A stretch of 31,737 bases of DNA, taken from a virus. The first letter of the stretch is position 1. Each line of letters starts with the position of its first letter. Position numbers and translations under genes: made by a program. The notes beneath the pieces were generated by a model. The model saw nothing but the letters and a program-made list of their open reading frames with translations, searched no databases and was not told where the DNA came from. The DNA lies in IMG/VR virus record IMGVR_UViG_3300037245_002296, positions 1 through 31,737 of that record; one strand, 5' to 3'. Of the stretch, positions 5,553 through 28,829 are shown piece by piece.

Positions 5553-8500
5553 TTAAGAGATAATCACGTAACTACCATCATTGTTACCTGGAGTGGCGGG
5601 ACTCCAGCCACCGGTGTATGACCCAGAATTTACATCAATACCCGACCACCTATCCGCGACGAATGCGTTGCCTAGTCCATTTTCATAAATGACGCAATTT
5701 CTCGCGTCAATGAATGAACCCTGGTATGAGTATACAGGAGAATCCCCACACCCAGACACTGTTACATACTGTGCTGAACATGTTGAACCATTGAAACAGA
5801 AAATCGCCTCGTTGCTGCCGCCCGACAGGTGGGCGTACCTCAAACTGAGAATTCCGCCGTTCTGTGCGTTGACACACCGTGACCCACACTTGCTCATAAA
5901 AGAGTAGTCCGCGAAAAGCATCGCATTGTTCTGAGAGTAGGCATCTGTTTGGAATCCAACAATGGCGGCAGCATCCCCACTCGCATCCGAACCAGCGAAG
6001 TTTATCACGGCACCATTGAGTAACCATATACCATACTTCGCATCCGTGTTTGAGGTATCATAGTTACCTTCGAGAACGAGACCTCTCCAGGCACCAGCGG
6101 TGTATGTCCCGTTTATTTTCAATCCGTTCTTGTCATCAAAGGCGATGACCGTTTTGATCAACTCGACAGTACATGTTACTGTCCCGGATGCCTTATTGGC
6201 ACCATTACGATAGACAATATCAACCGTTGCTGTCCGTGAGCCACCGTCCCACCCTGAGACATAATGGCAACCTAATAGAGCGTTGGGATTTACTCCACCA
6301 GATGTAGCCCGCACAGCAATATAATCACCTACCGAGACTGATTTCCCAACTGGTAGGACGAATGTCACCTCGTAGCTGATCAGACTACCGAAACCAAGAG
6401 CCGTTTCACTAACGCCAATTGAGGCGGTGTCCTGACTGGTGATCTGCTCGGAGACACCTTGCCAAGTCACTTGAGAACCAAACGGGTGCTGGAACGACAG
6501 TGTTCCAGCTTCGGGGAAGATACCTTCGCCAATGTCTACGAGAACGGTGTAGTCACCAATGTAGAGTTGACCAAGATATTCAATAGTCCTCTCTAACGTA
6601 AGGAAGGGGGTGCCAGACGAGCCATCACCAGTAGTATCATTACCCGTCGTGCGAATGTACACGGTCTTGTTTGCTGTTAGGGATAACGTCCATGGAGCCG
6701 ATTCCATCTGAAACTTTCCAGCACTGTCTGCTGTGAGAACGTACGTCATTTCAGCACCGGTGAATGCAGGGACTGTCTCTGCAAGTACGTCAGCAAGGCA
6801 TGTTGTATGCCATCCCGAAACGCCAGCGGCAGACGATGTCAACGCTTGATCATCACCAGTTGGTTCAGACAAGCCAGTGAAGGCGGACTTGTCTTCCCAT
6901 GCAACATTACCAGAGCCATCACTTGCAAGAACCTGATCGTTACCTGCTGTCGACCATGCTGACACTTTAGCATCAGTTGATATCAAAACCTGATTGTCTA
7001 TTGAAGGGGCTGGAGGGACCAAATCCCACGCAACTATCTGAGGGTCAGATTCGACTCCGGCGTGGTCATGGAAGCCACTCTCATCTGTGTAGAGAGCACT
7101 ATCCCATCCAGTCCAGTCAGTTGTGTATCGTTGTACATGGTCGTCAACTTCAACCATGAGGTAATTCCACTCGGAGGAAGTCGTGCCCAACATAACACAA
7201 ACTTTGTCAGTGTTACCATTGTACCCCACTCGGATGGAATCGAAAGGTGTTGTGCCATTAACACTCGCCGACATGTTCGCCCAATAGCCCGATGTACTAT
7301 TGTAACCGCCTATTTGTATTTCCCAGGCAGAAGATGCAGAGTGTTCGTACCCACGGATTTTGAAAGTCTGGAAGTTATTGGTGAACCCAAAGGGTAGATC
7401 GATTACGAGTGTTCCAAGATTAGTCCACCCTGTGATGTACCGACTGTGCATACACTTCCATACGTAGGCAGAATTTCCATGGTTGTACCTTGACCCTTCC
7501 TCAAGGTCCATGAACGTACCATCGGGAATGGTAATTAACCCAGTCGAACTGGAAATGGCGTTGCCGTCGATTGTGATGTTATCAAAATCTACAACACCTT
7601 CGCTACCAATTGTCATCCATGTGGTGACTGTTCCAGCGATGTTACGATTCTGGAATAGTAGGGTGGCACCTCGGGTGTTGGTATCAGACTCACGGACTGA
7701 AATGATTTTAGACTGAGGTGTGTTAAAACCATACGAATGTGGTGTCAGAAAATGTATAGTAGCCGTGCCATTCTCAACATCAGAAGTACCACCAGTAATT
7801 TGAATCACTGCATCTGGTGAATTCGCCACGACTATCGAACTACAACTGACTTCTCCAGTTGTTGTCAAATCGTCATCCTCGAAACTGATATCACCTGTAC
7901 TACTCCAAATCTTTGCGGCGTCGATAGAGATGGAATCGACTGTCAACGAATTCGCATTCATGGCTAAAACTGTAAAGCCACCTCCGGGAGCGATGCGTGC
8001 CTTCGACGTGTAGCTACCTCCATTGTTGGTGTAGAAATGCAGGGTCCCAGCATCATCGGCACCCGTTCTGACGGCTGTTATCCCAGCAAGAAGCGCTTTA
8101 CTGACACCACTATCTGTCATACTGAAAGTCATCCCAGGTCCGAAACCATTTATGGCATTCGAGCTAGTCTCAGCAATGAAGTCAGCAGTGTATTGGATAG
8201 CATTGGTACTTGTTGAAGTCCGTGTAACATCAAAAGGCGCATAGTCCGAGGATGATACTTCAAGGGTATTCAGGACGAGGTCAGTTGTCCAAGCAGCCGT
8301 CCCAGCACCGGTGCCTACATAGACTTCATTCACCGCACTGTTGGCAGGGATGTTAGAGCCAAAGGACTTGGCTTCCCAGGCAACGTTCCCGGAGCCATCG
8401 CTCGCGAGAACCTGGTTGTTACCAGCCGTCGACCATGCAGCTACGCCAGACGCTGTGGATATCAGTACTTGGTCATCCACCGTCGGCGCAGGTATATTCG

Positions 8501-11500
8501 ACCCAACAACCGTTCCGGTTGTGGTCAAGTTCTCATTGTCGAAGCCAATGGCTCCAGTGTCGCTGGAGATAACAGCACCATTGATTGTGATGTTGTCAAA
8601 ATCTACAACACCCTCGCTACCGATTGTCATCCAGGTTGTTACCACCCCAGCGATGGTACGATTCTGGAACAGTAGGTTAGCACCCTTGGTATCAGTGTCT
8701 GACTCACGGATTGATACGATTTTAGACTGAGGGGTATTAGTACCATACGAATGCGCTTCCAGGAAATGGATGGTGCCCACACCATCTGTAACATTGGCTT
8801 CACCTGATCTAATTTCTATCAGTCCGTCGGCTAGGTTTACCACTGTCAACTGGCTAGGATACATTACCCCAGTTGTGTACACGTCATCATCGGCAAACGT
8901 GAGGTACCCTGTCGAACTGGTGATATTGAAATCTTTGATAGTGATGTTGCCAGCATTCAAACGGTAGAGTCCGATGATGTCATCTGTCCAAGCAGCCGTC
9001 CCAACCCCGGTGCCAGCATACAATTGGTACTGCGCCGAGTTAGCGGGAATGTCATTGCCAAAGGACTTGGCTTCCCACGCAACGTTACCCGAGCCATCGC
9101 TCGCGAGGACCTGGTTGTTACCCGCTGTCGACCATGCAGCAATACCGGCTGCCGTGGATATCAGAACCTGGTCATCCACCGTCGGCGTAGGTATGTTCGA
9201 CCCGACAACCGTTCCGGTTGTGGTCAAGGTCTGTGCTCCTAAGTCGACGGGACCTGTTGCCCCAGAGTAGAGTACGTATTGGGTGTGATCGTCATCGCCG
9301 AGTCCCGCAAGGGCACCGTGGTCTGTCAGAGGGTCCTGCCAGGTTGCCGTGTCCGCACCAGTCGAGGTGAGGACCTTGTCGGTCACTGTCGGCGCAGGGA
9401 CATTCGACCCAACAACCGTTCCGGTTGTGGTGAGCGTTTGTGCCCCAAGGTCAACAGCCCCGGATGCTCCAGAGTAAGTCACGTATTGAGTGTGGTCGTC
9501 ATCACCAAGCCCTGAGAGGGCACCGTGATCTGTCACGCCTGTTACGGCGTCTTGCCAGGTTGCTGTGTTCGCACCGGTCGATGTGAGCACTTTGTCTGTC
9601 ACTGTCGGCGCAGGGATATTCGACCCAACAACCGTTCCGGTTGTGGTCAAGGTCTGTGCCCCTAAATCGACAGTTCCGGATGCTCCGGAGTAGGTCACGT
9701 ATTGAGTGTGATCGTCATCGCCGAGTCCCGTGAGGGCACCGTGGTCCGTCACACCGGTTACGGGGTCTTGCCAGGTTGCTGTGTTCGCACCAGTCGATGT
9801 GAGCACTTTGTCAGTGATGGACGGCGACGGGATATTCGACCCAATGACCGTTCCGGTGGTGGTGAAAGCTTGTGCTCCCAGGTTGACTGTTCCGGAGGCT
9901 CCGGAGTACGTCACGTACTGGGTGTGGTCGTCATCAGTGAGTCCTGTGAGGGCACCGTGGTCCGTCACACCGGATACGGAGTCTTGCCAGGACGCTGTCC
10001 CGATACCTGTAGAGGTGAGAACTTTGGCAGCCACTGTCGGCGCAGGTATGTTCGATCCAACAACCGTTCCGGTTGTGGTTATGGTGTAGGACCCCATGTC
10101 GAGATTTGCTATTGCCCCTGAGTACATAAGGTACTGAGGATGGTCGTCGTCACCGAGCCCTGTGAGGTTACCGTGGTCGCCCACGATGGACCCACCACCA
10201 GAAGGTTCGTCGACTGCTTGACGATAGTCGTCAACTTGGATGAGGTTGTAATACGGAGAACTAACCTGTCGACGTAGGATAACACGGGCAATGACTTTCG
10301 CCTCTACCACAGGGAGTGTGCCAAAGTCCATATCAGACAATTGGTTCCCATCTTGGGCTCCTGTCAGGGTAGACGAATCTTCTTGACCAGGGATCAAGAC
10401 GACCGGGGTATCTTGATCGTTGGATGCTATCACCCAATACGCAAAATACCCATTGACATTTACCGCAGTCCACTCCCAAGTCCCACCATTGGTGTTCACT
10501 TGGGGGATGTTGGTATCGAGGTAGACAGGGGTTGTCGAAGGCGCAATTAGTCGCCAGTCATCTGTTCCACTTCGATAGAATATCGGCAATTCCGCTGGTG
10601 ACAAATCCTGTGACCATAACCCGGCTCCACCGACGACATCCTTAATCCAAATTTCGATGTCTTCATCATGAATCTTGCCCGAAGATATATCGAGGTTATC
10701 ACCATTGATTGTGACTCCAAGACCTTCAGACCAACGTGTTGAAAAGGTATGGTGGAGGTAATGATGAGTTGTCCCATCCATCTCGTAGCCGTGCTGCTCA
10801 GGACCATTCAACGAGAATATGCTGTTGGTGGTATCCCAATAGACGATGCAGACTCCAGCCCAGTCATCGGCTTGGATATCCCAGGGTGTTTGGGAGGTTT
10901 CAAGCACACCACTGTCGTTGAAGTAGACAAACCAGATACCTTCGGTATCATCTATCACTACGGACTGTGTTGTTGTCTTCGTGTACTTGATACCCTGGAC
11001 CCAAAACTCGAAAGAGGCTCCGGTCGGATCAATACTGACGGTTCTGGATGGACCATCGACCGTTGTCGCGGTCAACAGTGTTGCAGAGTAGTTGGCAGCC
11101 CAGCCAGTCTTCTTTGTGTACTGGGGGTGGTCGTCGTGTTCGATTCCAGAGATAGAACCGTGGTCGATTGAGGAGTCGCCCTGCCGGTCCCACCAACCAT
11201 TGGCGGTGTCCCAGCGGAAGAAGTCGCCATCTGTGTTCGATCCTAACTTGATACCAGTAGACAATTCGTATGGGTCAAGTCGGAGAATTCTGACAGCGAT
11301 AATACCCTCGGTAGCACTCTTCCTAACGACATCACCAACCGCAATCCGAGTGTACGGAGCGTCGAGCATCGTGGTTGTCAACCCACCAGGGGTTATATCC
11401 AACCAAAGAAAGTCACCTTCGTTGAAGGCATCGGTATCGACGCCACGAACAAGACCCCGAGTGGTCACATAGCCATTGGAGTTATTGTCAATTGACTCAG

Positions 11501-12293
11501 TCGTCAAGCCAAGTACCCCTGACTCTTCTTTGACTGAAGCGTCGGCCGGACCAATGGTAGGTCTGTTGGCTTGAGACCCCGTCACGTAGACGGGAGTCCC
11601 ATCCGTGATAGAGCTTCCAGAGACATTGCGAACTCGAATGATGTGCTCTTGACCAATCTGCAAGTTGACATTGCCGCCGGGCATACCGACTTCAAGAGTT
11701 CCATCCTCAGCATTCCACTGAAGACGCCCTTCAGCAGTGCCATCGGAGTAGGTCAGATCAAATTGGATGTAGTCAACGGTCTCGATGGACCCAGTGATGT
11801 GGATGTCGGTAGCTGTGACATCACCAGTTGTTGTCAAGTTGTCATCACCAAAGTCAATGGTGCCTGTCGTGCTGAGAATCGTGTTTCCATCAATCGCGAT
11901 ATTGTCCACCGTGAGAGACGTGAGACCTGTGACATCGGTTGACCATACAGCCACGTTCGCGGCAGATGCTTGGAGCATCTGGCTCGACGCTGTCGGCGCA
12001 GGGATATTCGACCCAACGACTGTTCCAGTCGTGGTGAGGGTCTGTGAACCCAGATCGACATTCGATGTCTCTCCGTTGTTCAGAACGTATTGAGGGTGGT
12101 CATCATCGCCAAGTCCGGCGAGATCACCATGGTCTGGTTGAGCCCACACTGCGTTGCCAGATGCGTCCGCAATGAGTGCATAGTCCTCGGTTCCGCCAGC
12201 CGTTGGCAGAGTCCACCCACCGGCGTCAAGAGCTTGACCCGAAGGCAATTGCTTGAAGACACCAACATCGATAATCATAGGTTTGAAAGACAT
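5553..12293 (-). CDS. Giant tail fibre / spike with beta-helix C-terminus (2246 aa)
   Basis: Probable receptor-binding fibre. After a ~50-residue N-terminus comes the first DHG-LAGLGDDDHPQYV unit. Residues ~217-341 form a domain with GTPVYVTG and TRGLVRGVDT, a type common in phage fibres. Five tandem 72-residue DHGALTGL units occupy ~706-1056. Residues ~1057-1720 alternate copies of TGTVVGSNIPAP, NQVLASDGSGNVAWE and FDNITI units, including a duplicated ~60-residue block. From ~1875 to the end is a tailspike-like right-handed beta-helix, opening with KTVYIRTTGNDTTGDGSSGT and rich in Asn, Gly and short hydrophobic strands. AAGGGAGA precedes the ATG. No hydrolase residues can be assigned by eye, so enzymatic activity is open. 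Confidence 0.88.
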   Translation of the reverse strand: MSFKPMIIDVGVFKQLPSGQALDAGGWTLPTAGGTEDYALIADASGNAVWAQPDHGDLAGLGDDDHPQYVLNNGETSNVDLGSQTLTTTGTVVGSNIPAPTASSQMLQASAANVAVWSTDVTGLTSLTVDNIAIDGNTILSTTGTIDFGDDNLTTTGDVTATDIHITGSIETVDYIQFDLTYSDGTAEGRLQWNAEDGTLEVGMPGGNVNLQIGQEHIIRVRNVSGSSITDGTPVYVTGSQANRPTIGPADASVKEESGVLGLTTESIDNNSNGYVTTRGLVRGVDTDAFNEGDFLWLDITPGGLTTTMLDAPYTRIAVGDVVRKSATEGIIAVRILRLDPYELSTGIKLGSNTDGDFFRWDTANGWWDRQGDSSIDHGSISGIEHDDHPQYTKKTGWAANYSATLLTATTVDGPSRTVSIDPTGASFEFWVQGIKYTKTTTQSVVIDDTEGIWFVYFNDSGVLETSQTPWDIQADDWAGVCIVYWDTTNSIFSLNGPEQHGYEMDGTTHHYLHHTFSTRWSEGLGVTINGDNLDISSGKIHDEDIEIWIKDVVGGAGLWSQDLSPAELPIFYRSGTDDWRLIAPSTTPVYLDTNIPQVNTNGGTWEWTAVNVNGYFAYWVIASNDQDTPVVLIPGQEDSSTLTGAQDGNQLSDMDFGTLPVVEAKVIARVILRRQVSSPYYNLIQVDDYRQAVDEPSGGGSIVGDHGNLTGLGDDDHPQYLMYSGAIANLDMGSYTITTTGTVVGSNIPAPTVAAKVLTSTGIGTASWQDSVSGVTDHGALTGLTDDDHTQYVTYSGASGTVNLGAQAFTTTGTVIGSNIPSPSITDKVLTSTGANTATWQDPVTGVTDHGALTGLGDDDHTQYVTYSGASGTVDLGAQTLTTTGTVVGSNIPAPTVTDKVLTSTGANTATWQDAVTGVTDHGALSGLGDDDHTQYVTYSGASGAVDLGAQTLTTTGTVVGSNVPAPTVTDKVLTSTGADTATWQDPLTDHGALAGLGDDDHTQYVLYSGATGPVDLGAQTLTTTGTVVGSNIPTPTVDDQVLISTAAGIAAWSTAGNNQVLASDGSGNVAWEAKSFGNDIPANSAQYQLYAGTGVGTAAWTDDIIGLYRLNAGNITIKDFNITSSTGYLTFADDDVYTTGVMYPSQLTVVNLADGLIEIRSGEANVTDGVGTIHFLEAHSYGTNTPQSKIVSIRESDTDTKGANLLFQNRTIAGVVTTWMTIGSEGVVDFDNITINGAVISSDTGAIGFDNENLTTTGTVVGSNIPAPTVDDQVLISTASGVAAWSTAGNNQVLASDGSGNVAWEAKSFGSNIPANSAVNEVYVGTGAGTAAWTTDLVLNTLEVSSSDYAPFDVTRTSTSTNAIQYTADFIAETSSNAINGFGPGMTFSMTDSGVSKALLAGITAVRTGADDAGTLHFYTNNGGSYTSKARIAPGGGFTVLAMNANSLTVDSISIDAAKIWSSTGDISFEDDDLTTTGEVSCSSIVVANSPDAVIQITGGTSDVENGTATIHFLTPHSYGFNTPQSKIISVRESDTNTRGATLLFQNRNIAGTVTTWMTIGSEGVVDFDNITIDGNAISSSTGLITIPDGTFMDLEEGSRYNHGNSAYVWKCMHSRYITGWTNLGTLVIDLPFGFTNNFQTFKIRGYEHSASSAWEIQIGGYNSTSGYWANMSASVNGTTPFDSIRVGYNGNTDKVCVMLGTTSSEWNYLMVEVDDHVQRYTTDWTGWDSALYTDESGFHDHAGVESDPQIVAWDLVPPAPSIDNQVLISTDAKVSAWSTAGNDQVLASDGSGNVAWEDKSAFTGLSEPTGDDQALTSSAAGVSGWHTTCLADVLAETVPAFTGAEMTYVLTADSAGKFQMESAPWTLSLTANKTVYIRTTGNDTTGDGSSGTPFLTLERTIEYLGQLYIGDYTVLVDIGEGIFPEAGTLSFQHPFGSQVTWQGVSEQITSQDTASIGVSETALGFGSLISYEVTFVLPVGKSVSVGDYIAVRATSGGVNPNALLGCHYVSGWDGGSRTATVDIVYRNGANKASGTVTCTVELIKTVIAFDDKNGLKINGTYTAGAWRGLVLEGNYDTSNTDAKYGIWLLNGAVINFAGSDASGDAAAIVGFQTDAYSQNNAMLFADYSFMSKCGSRCVNAQNGGILSLRYAHLSGGSNEAIFCFNGSTCSAQYVTVSGCGDSPVYSYQGSFIDARNCVIYENGLGNAFVADRWSGIDVNSGSYTGGWSPATPGNNDGSYVIIS
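7560..8835 (-). repeat. Long internal duplication in the fibre gene
   Basis: Two blocks about 1.0 kb apart, roughly 7560-7820 and 8575-8835, encode nearly the same sequence. Each reads (in protein order) TIHFL, HSYG, NTPQSKI, SIRESDT or SVRESDT, LLFQNR, TTWMTIGSEGVVDFDNITI. DNA similarity is high over at least 180 bases. The DNA between them encodes different fibre sequence, so this is a dispersed rather than tandem duplication. Confidence 0.85.
9125..10178 (-). repeat. Five tandem 216-bp fibre repeats
   Basis: Units begin at 10178, 9962, 9746, 9530 and 9323 on the minus strand. The spacing is exactly 216 bases three times, then 207. Each encodes about 72 residues: DHGALTGLGDDDHTQYV, YSGASG, VDLGAQTLTT, GSNIPAPTVTDKVLTSTG and TATWQD. 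The shorter fourth unit lacks three residues at its end. Related degenerate units start near residues 54 and 375. Confidence 0.92.
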
Positions 12294-12355: not shown

Positions 12356-14560
12356 TTACAGTAAGATTGGCAATTCGATTTCGATATCTAACGTCGTAGT
12401 ATCAATTGCACGTCCGACACGAACAACGTATTGACCAGGTGTTGAGGGTGCTGTCGAAGTGAGCCTACCAGCCGTTGACGGGTCAAGGAAGTAGAACACT
12501 CCAGCCGACAGATTTGTTGCACCTGTGATACCTGACCAATCGGACCGTTCGATGCGTCCCTCTGTGAGGAATCGACATGTCGCGCCCGAAGCCGTATCGG
12601 TCATAGAAAGTCCAGCCACTTGGGCTGTTGTTGACGAGTTTGCTTGTGCTGGAAGAACGTGTCCAGTTCCAGAAACGATATACAGAGGGTTCCCGATGAT
12701 AAGAGCCGAGTCAGTCACGGCTTCATAGTAATCGAGTGTCCCAGGTGTTGCTGGAAGTTGAGGTTCAATAGGCACGTAGATTCCGTCCTGTACGTCAGAG
12801 CGTATTGCGGAGTAACGTAACGAGGGTGGGACAACCTGGGGATTCCAAGTCGGGTCCAATTCACCTTCAAAGGTGATATTCACCGTGTAGCTGTCGAACC
12901 TATCCTCAATGGCAGGTTCGTCCGGATTGGTGATGACACCTCTCCAGTAGCGATGCTCCCAGTCAATCATGCCGATCTCTTGACCGAGGTGGTCGTCGAT
13001 GAACGTCAGCAACTCTTGGGATTCAACTCGGAACAGTCCCGAGAACGTCATCACGATTGTTTGAATCTTGGGCCATATTGGGTCGGCATACACGATGAGT
13101 GTACCACCGCGAGTCTCTTGCAAGATACGGTGGAACGACAGTCTGTCTTTATTACCAAGGTTAGGTGTCTTTAATGACACAGAGTCTGAGACGACGCCAA
13201 CCGAAGGATAGACAAACTGGAACGGAACCTGGATACCAGCCATCGGACCATCAATGGCAGCCGGTGGAGGTGAAGGTGCGTCCGGGTCAGAACTATCACC
13301 AACGAACGGCGAGTACTGACAGGTTGTCGTACCTATGATGAGCGTGAACGTAGTAGACTGGAGGAAGTTTATAGGTGAAGAAGCTGAGATGCCTCTCTCA
13401 ATCGTGAAGGCTGCTACCTGTGTGAGTTCGAGCGGAGTTGAACCAGGTTTACCAGCAAGTCCTACAGCCGACTGTGTCAGAGCCAGAGAGCTTGTAGCAC
13501 TCTCTTCGATGGCATCCGGTACGGCGTGTTGGCTGAAGCTAATCGTGCTGGACGCAGATACATCAGTTCCAGACACAGAGGCTACGTGAGCCGATGCAAA
13601 GGATACCAGACCAATTACCGAAGATGCGTCACCGGACAGTATACCTTCGGTCGTAGCTTCTTGCCTCAGACCTGTCTCGACGAGATCGAACTCATCTGTG
13701 ATTACATTCCACACCAATGAGTTGACAGTCAGGGGACTTGTTGCCGACACGTAAATCGGCTTCAGAACGACGTTACTGTCAGTCAGTTCGAGAGTACTCG
13801 AAGCATACACATACTTGAGGCTACTTCGTGCCGATTGCGAGAACTCGATTTGAGTTGTAGCCGCTACCCTGTCAGGTTGGGCTCTCGCAACTTGAGTGAA
13901 CTCAAGTTGACTACTCGCAGAGAGTTCCTTAGCCGACCTTGCGGTACCTGTAAGCTCTAACGTACTGAACCCACGGTGAATCAAGTCGACCGTAGCCGTG
14001 TCAGTCAAGGTTAGAGCTTGGTTGATATCCCTGGCTTTGGTTTCATCGTCTGCGAATTGAACCAGTGTTAATACACTAGATGCATCAACGGTGATGAGAC
14101 CTAAACTGGTAGCAGTACCAGTTAGAGCCAGCGTTGACGACGCAGATACAATATGTGTTCCAGGGAACGATGTTGCATGCGTTAATAGCAATGCAGAGAC
14201 AGCATGGACGAACTTCGGACTGTAGTCGACAGATTGTCTCAGTATGAGTTCACTTGAAGCCGAGACACGTCCCACCAGTTCCCTAGTTGTACCCTGACTA
14301 AGAGCGAGAGCCGAACTGGCTGACAGGTTGAAGGTCATGACATCGCGTACGGCGAGGTCCGTAAGGGTCAATGTTGAAGAGGCAACCTCCTCAAAGATTT
14401 GGGTGGAAGGGAACAGCACCTCGACATACTGTCGAGACACCTTGAGTTCATCCCCTGGCTCTATAACCAGAGCTTCAACGATTTGTCGGGATACCTTGAG
14501 GTCTTCACCTGGCTCCACGACCAAGGCTTCTAACTTCTGTCTGGAGACGCGAATAGGCAT
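12356..14560 (-). CDS. Multi-repeat tail protein with VSRQ and SASS repeats (734 aa)
   Basis: Four regions are visible. (1) Residues 3-49: three copies of a VSRQ-x-VEAL repeat, 18-residue period. (2) Residues ~57-400: about 17 copies of a short beta repeat, consensus S-A-S-S-x-L-x-L-T-x-x-A, roughly every 22 residues. (3) Residues ~445-575: a domain like the 133-residue protein at 4741-5142. (4) Residues ~600-734: a C-terminal domain ending in Y-V-V-R-V-G-R-A-I and ELPILL, as in many phage fibre proteins. By position it is a structural tail-tip or fibre-base protein; the repeats may form an extended stalk. The same VSRQ repeat occurs in the head-tail adaptor at 27394-28296. GGAG lies 8 bases before the ATG. 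Confidence 0.75.
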   Translation of the reverse strand: MPIRVSRQKLEALVVEPGEDLKVSRQIVEALVIEPGDELKVSRQYVEVLFPSTQIFEEVASSTLTLTDLAVRDVMTFNLSASSALALSQGTTRELVGRVSASSELILRQSVDYSPKFVHAVSALLLTHATSFPGTHIVSASSTLALTGTATSLGLITVDASSVLTLVQFADDETKARDINQALTLTDTATVDLIHRGFSTLELTGTARSAKELSASSQLEFTQVARAQPDRVAATTQIEFSQSARSSLKYVYASSTLELTDSNVVLKPIYVSATSPLTVNSLVWNVITDEFDLVETGLRQEATTEGILSGDASSVIGLVSFASAHVASVSGTDVSASSTISFSQHAVPDAIEESATSSLALTQSAVGLAGKPGSTPLELTQVAAFTIERGISASSPINFLQSTTFTLIIGTTTCQYSPFVGDSSDPDAPSPPPAAIDGPMAGIQVPFQFVYPSVGVVSDSVSLKTPNLGNKDRLSFHRILQETRGGTLIVYADPIWPKIQTIVMTFSGLFRVESQELLTFIDDHLGQEIGMIDWEHRYWRGVITNPDEPAIEDRFDSYTVNITFEGELDPTWNPQVVPPSLRYSAIRSDVQDGIYVPIEPQLPATPGTLDYYEAVTDSALIIGNPLYIVSGTGHVLPAQANSSTTAQVAGLSMTDTASGATCRFLTEGRIERSDWSGITGATNLSAGVFYFLDPSTAGRLTSTAPSTPGQYVVRVGRAIDTTTLDIEIELPILL
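13340..14392 (-). repeat. About 17 degenerate SASSxLxLT protein repeats
   Basis: Protein-level tandem repeat of about 22 residues with core [SV]-A-S-S-[TAEQ]-[LI]-x-[LF]-[TS]-x-x-A. Examples are SASSTLALTGTA, SASSQLEFTQVA, YASSTLELTDSN and SATSSLALTQSA. It is conserved at protein rather than DNA level, so it is old or rapidly diverged. Confidence 0.8.
14414..14551 (-). repeat. Three VSRQ repeats in tail protein
   Basis: Repeats start at residues 5, 23 and 41: VSRQKLEALVVEPGED, VSRQIVEALVIEPGDE and VSRQYVEVLFPS. The core V-S-R-Q-x-[VL]-E-[AV]-L is the same as in the seven-copy array at 27928-28287. Confidence 0.9.
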
Positions 14561-14575: not shown

Positions 14576-15604
14576 TTAAGTGTTAGCACGAACCCCAAAT
14601 TGAGCACCATCAACACCTGATGGTGTCCAGGCGGAAGCTGTGTCTGGGTCTTCTTCTACGACCCTAACAGTGGTGACGTAGCTTGTTGATGCAACGGTTA
14701 CAGGTGAACCTGCGTCAACTGTTGCACCCGTCTTGATCACAGCACTCAAATCCATTGTCCCTGCTGTGATACGGGCTTCGTTGGTGATTTGAATACCATC
14801 AATTGATGCCACGTTGGCAGGGAGGTCTTCATACGTGAACAGGTCCTGATGGGCATCAGTACTTGTCTCATTGTATGTGGTATCCTCGTCTAAGAGTGCC
14901 CCATCATCGACATTCTGGTAGTTGCTGCCAGCACTGGGTGCCCAGTCAGAGTCGTCACCGGCACCGTCAGGATCGATTGCCACTACTTTCCGATTGCCCA
15001 AGATATCGTTGTTGACAGACCCGGTTCCATCAAGAAAGTAGAGATCATCGAATTTGCACAACTCACCATGGGCTTTTAGTCGAAAAGCTGTGTGGTAGGC
15101 ATTCGCCCCTGCCTGTGTGTCTATCCCAGACAGAGATAGCCAATTTGAACCATTTACCACTAGATCAGCAGTTCCGGCGGCATTATCCGTAAGAACTTTG
15201 AATTCGATGTAGTACCAAGTGTTGGTAAACAAGCTGAGGGCGGAAGTTCCAAGAACTGTAGAACCCCGTTTGATCTGAATGGTTCCATCAAAATTAAGAA
15301 AGAGGGTCATCCCCACAGTAATGCCATCATAAAGAACCAGAATCTCATCGGCGTCCGGCGCAGCAAATTGGAACGCAAACCCTGCAACACATGTAGCATC
15401 GATTGTCAGGTGGGGTGATTGTATGTATAATGAAGAGGCTTCCCATTCCAAGCAAAAGCCATTACCGCCCCTACCTACCTCCACATCCATGCTTGCTTCA
15501 CCTAGGGTAACAGGGTACTTACGTGCCACGATACCAGTCGGCTGCGGAGCAATACCAGTGGTGTCGCCGAAGCCTTCAAAACCTTCAATCCAGAGTAATG
15601 CCAT
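14576..15604 (-). CDS. LamG/concanavalin-like tail appendage protein (342 aa)
   Basis: Starts MALLWIEGFEGFG at ATG 15604, with AAGGAG at ideal spacing; a longer frame from 15664 runs through the intergenic hairpin and is rejected. The first ~210 residues look like a concanavalin/LamG-type beta sandwich: an early IEGFE strand, NGFCLEW, the central WYYIEFKV strand characteristic of phage lectin-like domains, and KFDDLYFLD near 200. The remainder is Asp/Gly-rich and includes a Val/Thr-rich segment (VTVASTSYVTTVRVVEED). Such proteins are typical virion surface or tail components. Ligand unknown. Confidence 0.75.
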   Translation of the reverse strand: MALLWIEGFEGFGDTTGIAPQPTGIVARKYPVTLGEASMDVEVGRGGNGFCLEWEASSLYIQSPHLTIDATCVAGFAFQFAAPDADEILVLYDGITVGMTLFLNFDGTIQIKRGSTVLGTSALSLFTNTWYYIEFKVLTDNAAGTADLVVNGSNWLSLSGIDTQAGANAYHTAFRLKAHGELCKFDDLYFLDGTGSVNNDILGNRKVVAIDPDGAGDDSDWAPSAGSNYQNVDDGALLDEDTTYNETSTDAHQDLFTYEDLPANVASIDGIQITNEARITAGTMDLSAVIKTGATVDAGSPVTVASTSYVTTVRVVEEDPDTASAWTPSGVDGAQFGVRANT

Positions 15605-22990: not shown

Positions 22991-23569
22991 CTAATAGGCT
23001 GTAACTGGGGTCAATACCCCTTTTGGTTGGAACGTAAACGTAGTTGACTTTGTCGACCGCTGCTTCGTACAGAAAGTTGAATAGGGTATTCCAATGTCAT
23101 CGGCAGCGTCTCGAAGACATTCATATTGGATATCATCTACAACAATTCTTGTTGCCCTCGGATGTTTCCCTCTTTTGTACTTCAATCTGGCTTCTCGCAT
23201 CTTTTGCTTTGCATCATCAGAAAATTTATAACCAGTTGTTCCTGTATGACTATCACACATCCTCCTTCGTGTTTCATCAGATGCTTTCCATCCAGTGGAG
23301 CCTTCACCACCTTCGGTGAGATTGTAACCAGAATGTGCCATTGTATTCAACATACGTATGGCTCTGACTTCCATTTCTTTCACGTACTCTTCTGTCCCTT
23401 TGCATATTACTTGGAAGTCCAAATTCTCGATACCATACTTCTTAATAGCATGGTACACAAGTTTTGAACCATGTCCTGACCGATGTTCTCGCCAACGTCG
23501 TATGTAGTCCTTAGCAATACCTACGTAGCGTTTCCCATTAACAAGGTTTGTCACGACATACAAAAACAT
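22991..23569 (-). CDS. GIY-YIG homing endonuclease with NUMOD-type tail (192 aa)
   Basis: The N-terminal ~90 residues form a GIY-YIG nuclease: MFLYVVTNLVNGKRYVGIAK gives the LYVV...YVG pair, RRWREH holds the catalytic-type Arg, and GYNLTEGGEGS closes the domain. Next come GWKASDETRRRMCDSH and GYKFSDDAKQKMREARLK, NUMOD3-like DNA-binding repeats, and a final IENR/NUMOD1-like segment (YECLRDAADDIGIPYSTF). This is the classical layout of phage free-standing or intron-type homing endonucleases. It lies between the tail terminator-like and first tube genes with 2- and 13-base gaps, so it probably invaded the late operon. It is in the same orientation and has GGAG before its ATG. Confidence 0.93.
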   Translation of the reverse strand: MFLYVVTNLVNGKRYVGIAKDYIRRWREHRSGHGSKLVYHAIKKYGIENLDFQVICKGTEEYVKEMEVRAIRMLNTMAHSGYNLTEGGEGSTGWKASDETRRRMCDSHTGTTGYKFSDDAKQKMREARLKYKRGKHPRATRIVVDDIQYECLRDAADDIGIPYSTFCTKQRSTKSTTFTFQPKGVLTPVTAY

Positions 23570-27393: not shown

Positions 27394-28296
27394 TTAGGAA
27401 ATCCGAGTAAGTAAGATGGCACCATCTTCTCGAAGATACGGTTGCAACAAACGCCAGGCTTGTTCGCTAGGTACTCCGTTGATGATGTGTTTGAGGGGGA
27501 CTTGATTCCTAGAATAGGAAGACCTTGCCGACCCTATTCCGTGGTGGATGACGGCGAGATTTTCTAGCTCGTCGTCAGGGTTTTTCCCATCAAGTAGTGA
27601 GTAAGCAATCTCGTAGGACGCCACTCGAATCTCTTCTGGAACTTCCGTGTCATCATCCCGAGGAAACTCTAAAAACTGTGACTCGGAATGTTTGTCTCCT
27701 TTGTAGTTCAAAGCATCAATGATAAGGGCTGCTGCCCAGAGAGCTTTCTTTCTATCGAGAGGGTTCGAGTTTGTCCAGGCACGGCCATGAAGGCGATTTG
27801 AGAAGTACTCGCGCGCCTCATAGATTGTCCCGTAGTACCCATATGTGAGGTGGGAAATTTCCCAAATCGCGTCTTGTGTGAGGGTGATTATCGATGCACC
27901 GTCACCATAGAAGACACGAACCGGATACAGAACTTCAACAAGCTGCCTGGAAACTGTCAGGCCGGGAGGCGTACCATCTATAATTAACGCCTCAACTTGT
28001 TGCCTTGAAACTCTAAGTTCTATGGGCGTGTTGTCTACGAATAACACCTCAGTCCGTTGCCTTGAAACTTTCAGTTCAGGGTATACTCGGTGCAATACTT
28101 CTACATATTGCCTTGAAATTTTCAGTTCAGGGTCAGGTGGCTCAAACAGGACGTCAACATGCTGTCTTGAAACTTTCAATCCAACAGGCGTATCGTCTAC
28201 AAACAACGCTTCAACACGTTGCCTTGAAACTCCTAAGTCAGTGGGGGTGATACCAACCAATGCCTCAACGTACTGCCTTGATACTCGCATTACCAT
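27394..28296 (-). CDS. Head-tail adaptor paralogue 2 with seven VSRQ repeats (300 aa)
   Basis: Residues 3-123 are seven tandem VSRQ repeats. Residues ~128-138 (GASIITLTQDA) resemble one unit of the SASS repeat in the 734-residue tail protein. Residues ~145-300 are a paralogue of the preceding 173-residue adaptor: RAWTNSNPLDRKKALWAA, LIIDALNYKG, SYSRNQVPLKHIINGVPS and a final LLTRIS. The fold and position suggest a connector ring subunit; the repeats would project from it. GAGGAG lies six bases before the ATG. An unrelated adaptor with this repeat array added is the simplest reading, but the repeats' function is unknown. Confidence 0.8.
   Translation of the reverse strand: MVMRVSRQYVEALVGITPTDLGVSRQRVEALFVDDTPVGLKVSRQHVDVLFEPPDPELKISRQYVEVLHRVYPELKVSRQRTEVLFVDNTPIELRVSRQQVEALIIDGTPPGLTVSRQLVEVLYPVRVFYGDGASIITLTQDAIWEISHLTYGYYGTIYEAREYFSNRLHGRAWTNSNPLDRKKALWAAALIIDALNYKGDKHSESQFLEFPRDDDTEVPEEIRVASYEIAYSLLDGKNPDDELENLAVIHHGIGSARSSYSRNQVPLKHIINGVPSEQAWRLLQPYLREDGAILLTRIS
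27928..28287 (-). repeat. Seven tandem VSRQ repeats
   Basis: Cores start at residues 5, 23, 42, 60, 77, 96 and 115, a period of 17-19 residues. Consensus L-x-[VI]-S-R-Q-x-V-[ED]-[VA]-L, then a variable Asp/Pro/Thr turn. On the plus strand the DNA shows recurring TGCCTTGAAAC. Conserved beta-prone cores with variable turns suggest a repeated beta-hairpin or solenoid. Confidence 0.92.
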
Positions 28297-28307
28297 GAGG
28301 TGCTCCT

Positions 28308-28829
28308 CTAGGAAATTCTCGCGAGCACAAGGGCGTCATCGTCGCGGAGGAAGGGTTTGATCCAACGCCAAACCTGCGAACTCGGGATACCATTGATGAT
28401 GTGTTCGATGGGAACCTGATTTCTGGAGTAGGATGTTCTCACCGCTGCGTAACCCTGACTGATGACACCAAGGTTCTCCAATTCGATCTCGGGGTCTTTC
28501 CCATCAAGCAACTCGTAAGCAATCTCGTAGTTTGCTCGACGAATCTCTTCCGGCACCACAGTGTCGTCTCCACGGGGGAACTCCAACGGTTGGGCTTCCT
28601 CTGCTTCACGAATCTCCCCATCCGTCGCACTAGGGTTCGCTGCAAGGAGCGTGTAAACGGTGCTCTTGTAGCCTTTGTAGTTCAACGCATCAATGATGAG
28701 GGTTGCCGCCCACAGGGCTTTGGGACGGTCCTCTACGGCAGCAGAAGTCCATGCACGTTCACGCAGTCGCATGGCGAAGTACTCGTCGGCTTCCACGAGA
28801 TTGCCATAGTATGATTGAGAAAGCGACAT
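28308..28829 (-). CDS. Head-tail adaptor-like protein 1 (173 aa)
   Basis: Mostly helical protein directly downstream of the portal cluster: MSLSQSYYGNLVEADEYFAM, RAWTSAAVEDRPKALWAATL, LIIDALNYKG, ANYEIAYELLDGKDPEIELE, a long SYSRNQVPIEHIINGIPSSQ region and the end LVLARIS. The helical character and location between portal and scaffold fit a head-tail connector (gp6-like) subunit. Proteins of this type are sometimes annotated as DnaT-like, which I consider less informative. AAGGAGG precedes the ATG at five bases. Its last 12 bases resemble those of its neighbour and paralogue (both end R-I-S-stop). Confidence 0.75.
   Translation of the reverse strand: MSLSQSYYGNLVEADEYFAMRLRERAWTSAAVEDRPKALWAATLIIDALNYKGYKSTVYTLLAANPSATDGEIREAEEAQPLEFPRGDDTVVPEEIRRANYEIAYELLDGKDPEIELENLGVISQGYAAVRTSYSRNQVPIEHIINGIPSSQVWRWIKPFLRDDDALVLARIS

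Follow-up and report, generated by a model that had tools for sequence, protein, structure and literature searches.

The locus examined here raises the question of what a short repeated peptide does at the N-termini of two structural proteins of the same phage. The sequence analysed (the window) is a single virus record (G000) of 31,737 nucleotides, in which the structural genes, encoding the portal, the head-tail adaptor Ad1, an array-bearing Ad1 paralogue (Ad1'), the scaffold, the major head protein, the tape measure and the tail proteins, lie on the minus strand (Table 1). An initial annotation had recognized seven copies of the repeat at the N-terminus of the adaptor paralogue and three at that of a 734-residue tail protein; open reading frames, shuffled sequences and unit scores bear out both arrays. 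The same annotation suggested a shared recognition module with a common partner. This proposal is well supported by our analysis, and the likely partner is a lectin-fold protein of the family phrog_2448, whose gene lies directly upstream of the tail array. We propose, with a probability of roughly two in three, that the array is a docking rail that would bind this protein directly and mount lectins on the tail and the neck.

Table 1. Positions of the arrays, their carriers and the proposed partner in the window.
Feature	Position	Strand	Basis
Ad1', array-bearing Ad1 paralogue, 300 aa	27394..28296	-	phrog_477 profile, E 1.1e-12
Seven-unit VSRQxVE[VA]L array, Ad1' N-terminus	27928..28287	-	motif pattern and unit score
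Ad1' array cores	28258-28284, 28204-28230, 28147-28173, 28093-28119, 28042-28068, 27985-28011, 27928-27954	-	
Plain Ad1 head-tail adaptor, without array	28308..28829	-	phrog_477, E 6.7e-13
734-aa tail protein: three-unit array, then ASSxLxLT repeats, C-terminal region kept in relatives	12356..14560	-	
Three-unit array, tail protein N-terminus	14413..14554	-	motif pattern and unit score
Tail-protein array cores	14522-14548, 14468-14494, 14414-14440	-	
ASSxLxLT repeats behind tail array (approximate extent)	13300..14395	-	read from translation
phrog_2448 lectin-fold protein, proposed array partner	14576..15604	-	profile E 2.7e-35

The repeat unit and its two carriers

The N-terminal sequences of the two proteins (MVMRVSRQYVEAL... 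in Ad1' and MPIRVSRQKLEAL... in the tail protein) carry units at residues 5, 23, 42, 60, 77, 96 and 115 (spacing 18, 19, 18, 17, 19 and 19) and at residues 5, 23 and 41 (spacing 18 and 18), respectively. A degenerate codon pattern for the motif gave six matches in the window and none in 100 shuffles. On a position-specific score built from 120 units, the window's own among them, the window units reach 22.7-32.3 bits, and control viral ORFs attain 9 bits at only 4 of 334,173 positions. The departures among the window units are one ISRQ, one HVDVL and one RTEVL. Across 35 arrays with 120 units, the consensus is [LA]-R-V-[ST]-[RQ]-[Qx]-x-V-E-[VA]-L, behind which come 6-8 variable residues, and the spacing between units is 17 (50 cases), 18 (26), 19 (6) or 20 (3). 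The array starts 2-7 residues after a methionine in about two thirds of the proteins.

In both window proteins the repeats had been described as followed by a unit of the form S-x-x-x-L-x-L-T. This unit is better written ASSxLxLx; it is readily recognized both in the tail protein (ASSTLTLTD) and in the adaptors of relatives (SASSVLNLQ, SASSLLVLQ), but only approximate in the window adaptor (GASIITLTQ). No named family covers the repeat in Pfam, PHROGs or PDB sequence searches, as the initial annotation had supposed for named domains, and the PDB search returned no solved structure. A weak match of the tail array to phrog_23775 (E 0.2) was dropped, as it also arises in 5 of 14 control genomes. 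The 734-aa tail protein as a whole likewise matched no family in a Pfam search.

Residues 154-292 of Ad1' form a C-terminal domain that is a clear member of the head-tail adaptor family Ad1 (phrog_477), and this C-terminus shares 66% identity across 97 residues with the plain Ad1, whose gene lies immediately upstream. In Pfam the domain matches DnaT_2 (PF20557), annotated as 'putative DnaT-like' ssDNA binding. Because of the PHROG match and the gene position, we regard the domain as a head-tail adaptor, and the Pfam name is probably misleading here. Ad1' differs from the plain adaptor of the same phage in its N-terminal array, and is thus a second, array-bearing paralogue.

Distribution of the array among phages

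A tblastn search with the full window adaptor found no phage relative, and a related-locus search with whole arrays gave no match, the patterns used falling outside the motif core. A DNA pattern specifying two motif copies 17 codons apart recovered 16 viral stretches, and the same pattern at 18 codons a further 13 (29 in all). Bacterial and archaeal genomes totalling 257 Gb gave only three matches to the 17-codon pattern, and one of these (L060) is a genuine array with a lectin gene next to it. We argue that the matches are true relatives, because the arginine before the motif and the R or Q after [ST] lay outside the search pattern. The L060 locus, on a 444-kb contig of a Planctomycetota MAG (QQVP01000119.1), contains a 995-aa ORF with eight array units, immediately behind a gene for a lectin of the phrog_2448 type, and would represent a prophage or a mis-binned phage.

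Isolated phages with the array include Caulobacter phage phiCbK and its relatives, Brevundimonas phages, Enc34, Redjac and the 595-kb phage LR756511. In phiCbK it makes up most of gp316, a protein of 69 aa, with three units. In the Brevundimonas phages the array forms the C-terminus of a glycine-rich lectin-like protein, and in the Casjensviridae Enc34 and Redjac the N-terminus of a 664-668-aa protein whose YSD1 homologue is YSD1_35. Enc34 ORF37 (L009, 4986-6992; homologous to proteins of chi and to YSD1_35) continues behind its N-terminal array with an extended run of VSQVLEHVAxxxxYPD repeats, each about 24 residues long and possibly a diverged form of the array unit. Apparently diverged forms of the array lie behind a lectin gene in Mesorhizobium phage Cp1R7A-A1 and in Sphingomonas phage Kimi.

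Among close relatives of the tail protein, G001, G003 and G004 each keep an array of three units. Relatives of Ad1' carry seven units (G002), five (G003 and G018), four (G011) or a diverged array (G012). In G003 a frameshift, either a sequencing error or real damage, interrupts the Ad1 part of the array-bearing Ad1' (L127, which is G003:24000-29500, at 1464-2344); the five units of this protein are intact. Copy number overall ranges from 2 to 8, and the units of some arrays, such as L051 and L064, are nearly identical, which together suggest that copy number changes by tandem duplication. The carriers include several virion parts, namely Ad1, a tail protein, a DUF2460 protein (L147) and a minor tail protein (L148), and there are also stand-alone array proteins of 62-92 aa (L057, L059 and L069). 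One mixed alignment (A2) was set aside as too diverse. Two outcomes that would have spoken against a shared module, that the repeat belong to a known Pfam family or lack conservation, did not occur: no Pfam family was found, and unrelated phages keep the array.

Array genes adjoin genes for a lectin-fold protein

The window gene that immediately precedes the tail array encodes a protein (342 aa from the ATG at 15604, a start that is likely by comparison with relatives) that aligns with positions 2-333 of the 335-position phrog_2448 profile, and reaches an E-value of 1.4e-37 in the genome search. A Pfam search with this protein returned no family. We call the phrog_2448 product a lectin for its predicted fold only, and do not mean sugar binding by the term.

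A phrog_2448 gene (E below 1e-17) is present in all 30 of the array-bearing viral records tested; of 30 random viral records, selected by means of an arbitrary 15-mer, only one has it (Fisher p 2.6e-16). Gene position is a stricter test than co-occurrence in a record, because random records may be without a tail module. By this measure the adjacency is near-obligate: for 28 of 35 arrays a lectin gene is on the same strand and no more than 130 bp away (median 27 bp), the neighbour being phrog_2448 or its relative phrog_6368, and the genes are adjacent in unrelated phages. In the usual layout the phrog_2448 gene shares the strand of the array and stops 5-130 bp ahead of it. The reverse test began from 78 lectin loci fetched regardless of arrays, 70 of which had enough downstream sequence to be counted; an array is present within 2 kb downstream in 40 of the 70, upstream in one and antisense in none, some of these loci being records from the array search, so that the two tests partly overlap.

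The isolates agree. In phiCbK, gp316 adjoins gp315 (phrog_2448, E 4.6e-87), and the Brevundimonas phages, Enc34 and LR756511 also have both genes. The order is reversed in phiCbK, with the array first, and the two genes are divergent in LR756511; what is kept is therefore the neighbourhood, not one arrangement of the DNA. The window lectin matches only 46 of 50,697 phage records, and these include all 23 array records from Caulobacter phages, Brevundimonas phages and LR756511.

The lectin family also expands inside single phages, with two to five paralogues in tandem near the array gene at four loci (L132, L137, L153 and L155). The expectation that more lectin genes should go with more repeats was not borne out, there being no significant correlation between the two numbers (rho 0.25, p 0.18). 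Since lectin gene number does not predict repeat number, different repeats need not take different lectins.

The arrangement extends to the neck. In four relatives (G002, G003, G018 and G011) the gene order is plain Ad1, lectin, array-bearing Ad1', and in G012 a lectin gene directly precedes the array-bearing Ad1'. Two lectin genes are present in G003, and each of its arrays, at the tail and at the neck, has one of them alongside. In the window, 11 bp separate plain Ad1 from Ad1' (28296-28308) at the site that holds the lectin gene in the four relatives, and the single lectin gene is at the tail locus, with none beside the neck array. A neck copy has probably been lost from the window, and on the simplest reading the intact seven-unit neck array would be served by the lectin encoded at the tail locus.

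Predicted structures and a natural fusion

The AlphaFold2 model that contains the window lectin has a confident two-part structure (mean pLDDT 88.6, pTM 0.85). On comparison with the PDB, residues 1-205 of the model have a concanavalin A-like lectin/glucanase fold, matching the glucuronan lyase 2zzj with Z 17.8 and 2.6 A over 176 residues; further matches are CBM66, sialidase lectin domains and the ERGIC-53 lectin domain. Residues from about 205 to 342 are modelled as a second, mostly beta domain that is conserved up to its last strand (WT..xN..xFGV).

The TAA stop codon of the window lectin gene (14576-14578) is in frame with the array gene, which starts 15 bp beyond it. A first prediction was run on lectin and array as one chain, read through this stop, with repeats 2 and 3 as an internal control. 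Repeat 1 was predicted with confidence as an ordered strand (residues 351-363, pLDDT 94) and the similar repeats 2 and 3 at pLDDT 46-60, in a job where linked chains favour contact with the nearest repeat and only three alignment rows held the array. One repeat per lectin would look like this in such a model. A second prediction, on another fusion (L066) in which the array follows about 205 residues after the lectin, had two alignment rows and left the inserted domain and the array unmodelled (pLDDT 30-47), with no docking; it speaks neither for nor against contact. Array-only rows were misplaced when aligned with lectins (A3) and were left out.

A natural fusion is found in Sphingomonas phage Kharn, where product 21 is a single ORF with a lectin, then the repeat-like sequence LVSMSLVGYEVL, then an F5/8 type C-like domain that falls below the Pfam cut-off. 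Among viral proteins, the structure predicted for this product matches the fused lectin-array model best. No second fused lectin-repeat ORF was present among 192 mapped lectin ORFs.

A docking rail as the likely function of the array

In the mechanism that we favour, each unit of 17-19 residues would consist of a strand of about 10 residues, RVSRQxVEVL, and a variable turn. One copy of the lectin would bind the unit as an ordered beta-strand, such that an array of n units could carry a maximum of n lectins. The protein that follows the array would act as the anchor that fixes it to the particle: a distal or minor tail protein would place lectins on the tail, and an Ad1 paralogue on the head-tail connector, or neck. 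Once displayed, the lectins may bind cell-surface glycans. We infer the direct contact from several lines of evidence: the presence of phrog_2448 in every array-bearing record tested and almost no random one, the short distance from array to lectin gene, the arrays found downstream when the search begins from lectins, the lectin genes that accompany connector arrays in G002, G003, G011, G018 and G012, the concordant isolates, the predicted order of repeat 1 as against repeats 2 and 3, the Kharn fusion and the several carriers that are virion parts.

Some observations count against the docking rail. Lectin gene number and repeat number are not significantly correlated, and no lectin gene lies beside the neck array of the window. 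Moreover, band-excision mass spectrometry of phiCbK virions identified eight proteins, with neither the array protein nor the lectin among them (PMC3556154). A 69-aa protein is easily missed by gel-band proteomics, but the absence still counts against this reading.

A different, possible though much less probable, explanation is that array and lectin cooperate without binding each other. The array would then be a stalk or oligomerization element of its carrier, for example a trimeric beta-spiral or beta-meander, and the lectin a separate tail component of the same gene cluster. The strand-turn pattern of the unit does resemble fibrous shaft repeats, the array is often followed by ASSxLxLT-like repeats, and the phrog_2448 product is not known from virions. 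However, a shaft is hard to reconcile with arrays of only two or three units, with stand-alone array proteins of 62-92 aa or with fusion of the array to Ad1, a ring protein; the repeats away from the lectin are predicted with low confidence, and a stalk has no need of a lectin gene alongside at every move.

It is unlikely that the array is instead an assembly aid, a steric chaperone that would bind or shield the folding lectin, with no need for display on the particle. Coupled synthesis of this kind would predict an array gene directly after the lectin gene, as is usually seen, but virion proteins (Ad1, the tail protein and the DUF2460 protein) contain the array within their own chain, and its copy number varies from 2 to 8.

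The initial annotation had raised a link between neck and tail fibres, in which the two arrays would bind each other or a third component. The same repeat does occur in two proteins of one particle, but this idea found no support and seems very improbable: the neck array of relatives has its own adjacent lectin copy, and in G003 each array has a separate one; G001 has the tail array and no array-bearing Ad1; and most array-bearing records have a single array. Finally, conservation of the repeat as DNA (a recombination hot spot or regulatory repeat) or its origin as a chance low-complexity expansion is scarcely credible despite the near-identical units that show tandem duplication in L051 and L064, since the same protein motif recurs in unrelated phages and, of nine codons, tail and Ad1' repeats differ synonymously at 5.1 and non-synonymously at 2.1, so that the protein motif is what is kept; a role at the DNA level was rejected on this codon evidence.

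A broader formulation of the docking rail, which seems to us finely balanced, is that lectin-fold protein and peptide array constitute a portable, hitherto unnamed phage mounting system, in which each repeat would give a beta-strand to one lectin. The virion protein to which the array is fused would then decide whether rows of lectins stand on the tail, the distal tail or the head-tail connector, and the number displayed would be tuned as repeats are unequally duplicated. If so, phages would possess a modular route to multivalent adhesion on any surface protein, including those of the neck, and the number of repeats could change rapidly in evolution.

Relation to known systems

A close counterpart is phrog_13560, the family of phiCbK gp316, which consists mostly of three [VL]TQxxVEV[IL] units with a period of 17 and is encoded beside a phrog_2448 gene. 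LR756511 and four relatives (L129, L148, L153 and L155) match this family, the relatives with E-values of 1.8e-7 to 2.5e-4; the window array proteins were not listed at E up to 1, and their arrays differ in being N-terminal extensions of larger virion proteins. PHROGs lists phrog_13560 without function or partner and gives no function for phrog_2448 and phrog_6368, whereas we assign to phrog_2448, which includes the window lectin, a concanavalin A-like fold by prediction and the array as its putative partner.

That adhesins can be mounted on a scaffold of the virion is known in principle. In the branched receptor-binding proteins of Ackermannviridae such as CBA120 and of Klebsiella phages, one virion protein, a T4gp10-like anchor, carries other receptor-binding proteins (for example PMC6872550 and PMC11721090). 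Such anchors are folded domains related to T4 gp10, whereas the window has a string of short repeats, and Pfam searches at E up to 1 found no T4 gp9/gp10-type anchor domain in the window array proteins or lectin. In cohesin-dockerin scaffoldins of the cellulosome, several copies of one protein are mounted along a scaffold via repeated sites. The likeness in repeated mounting sites is looser and the roles are reversed, a short peptide being repeated on the scaffold here; no dockerin or cohesin domain was matched in the window proteins by Pfam at E up to 1. We found no earlier description of the repeat, its lectin partner or a lectin-array system in the open-access literature.

Two families listed as 'unknown function' in PHROGs thereby gain a partner and a testable job, and they occur in phiCbK, in chi-like Casjensviridae and in many environmental phages. 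The adjacency rule should allow lectins and arrays to be annotated in phage genomes where neither is named. As phiCbK carries both genes side by side and grows in laboratory Caulobacter, the idea is directly testable there.

Two other features of the window were observed. A 2246-aa ORF (5553-12293) with no Pfam match and only one weak PHROG match adjoins the tail protein gene, and a homing endonuclease (phrog_314, E 3.5e-36) is inserted in the structural gene module at 22991-23569.
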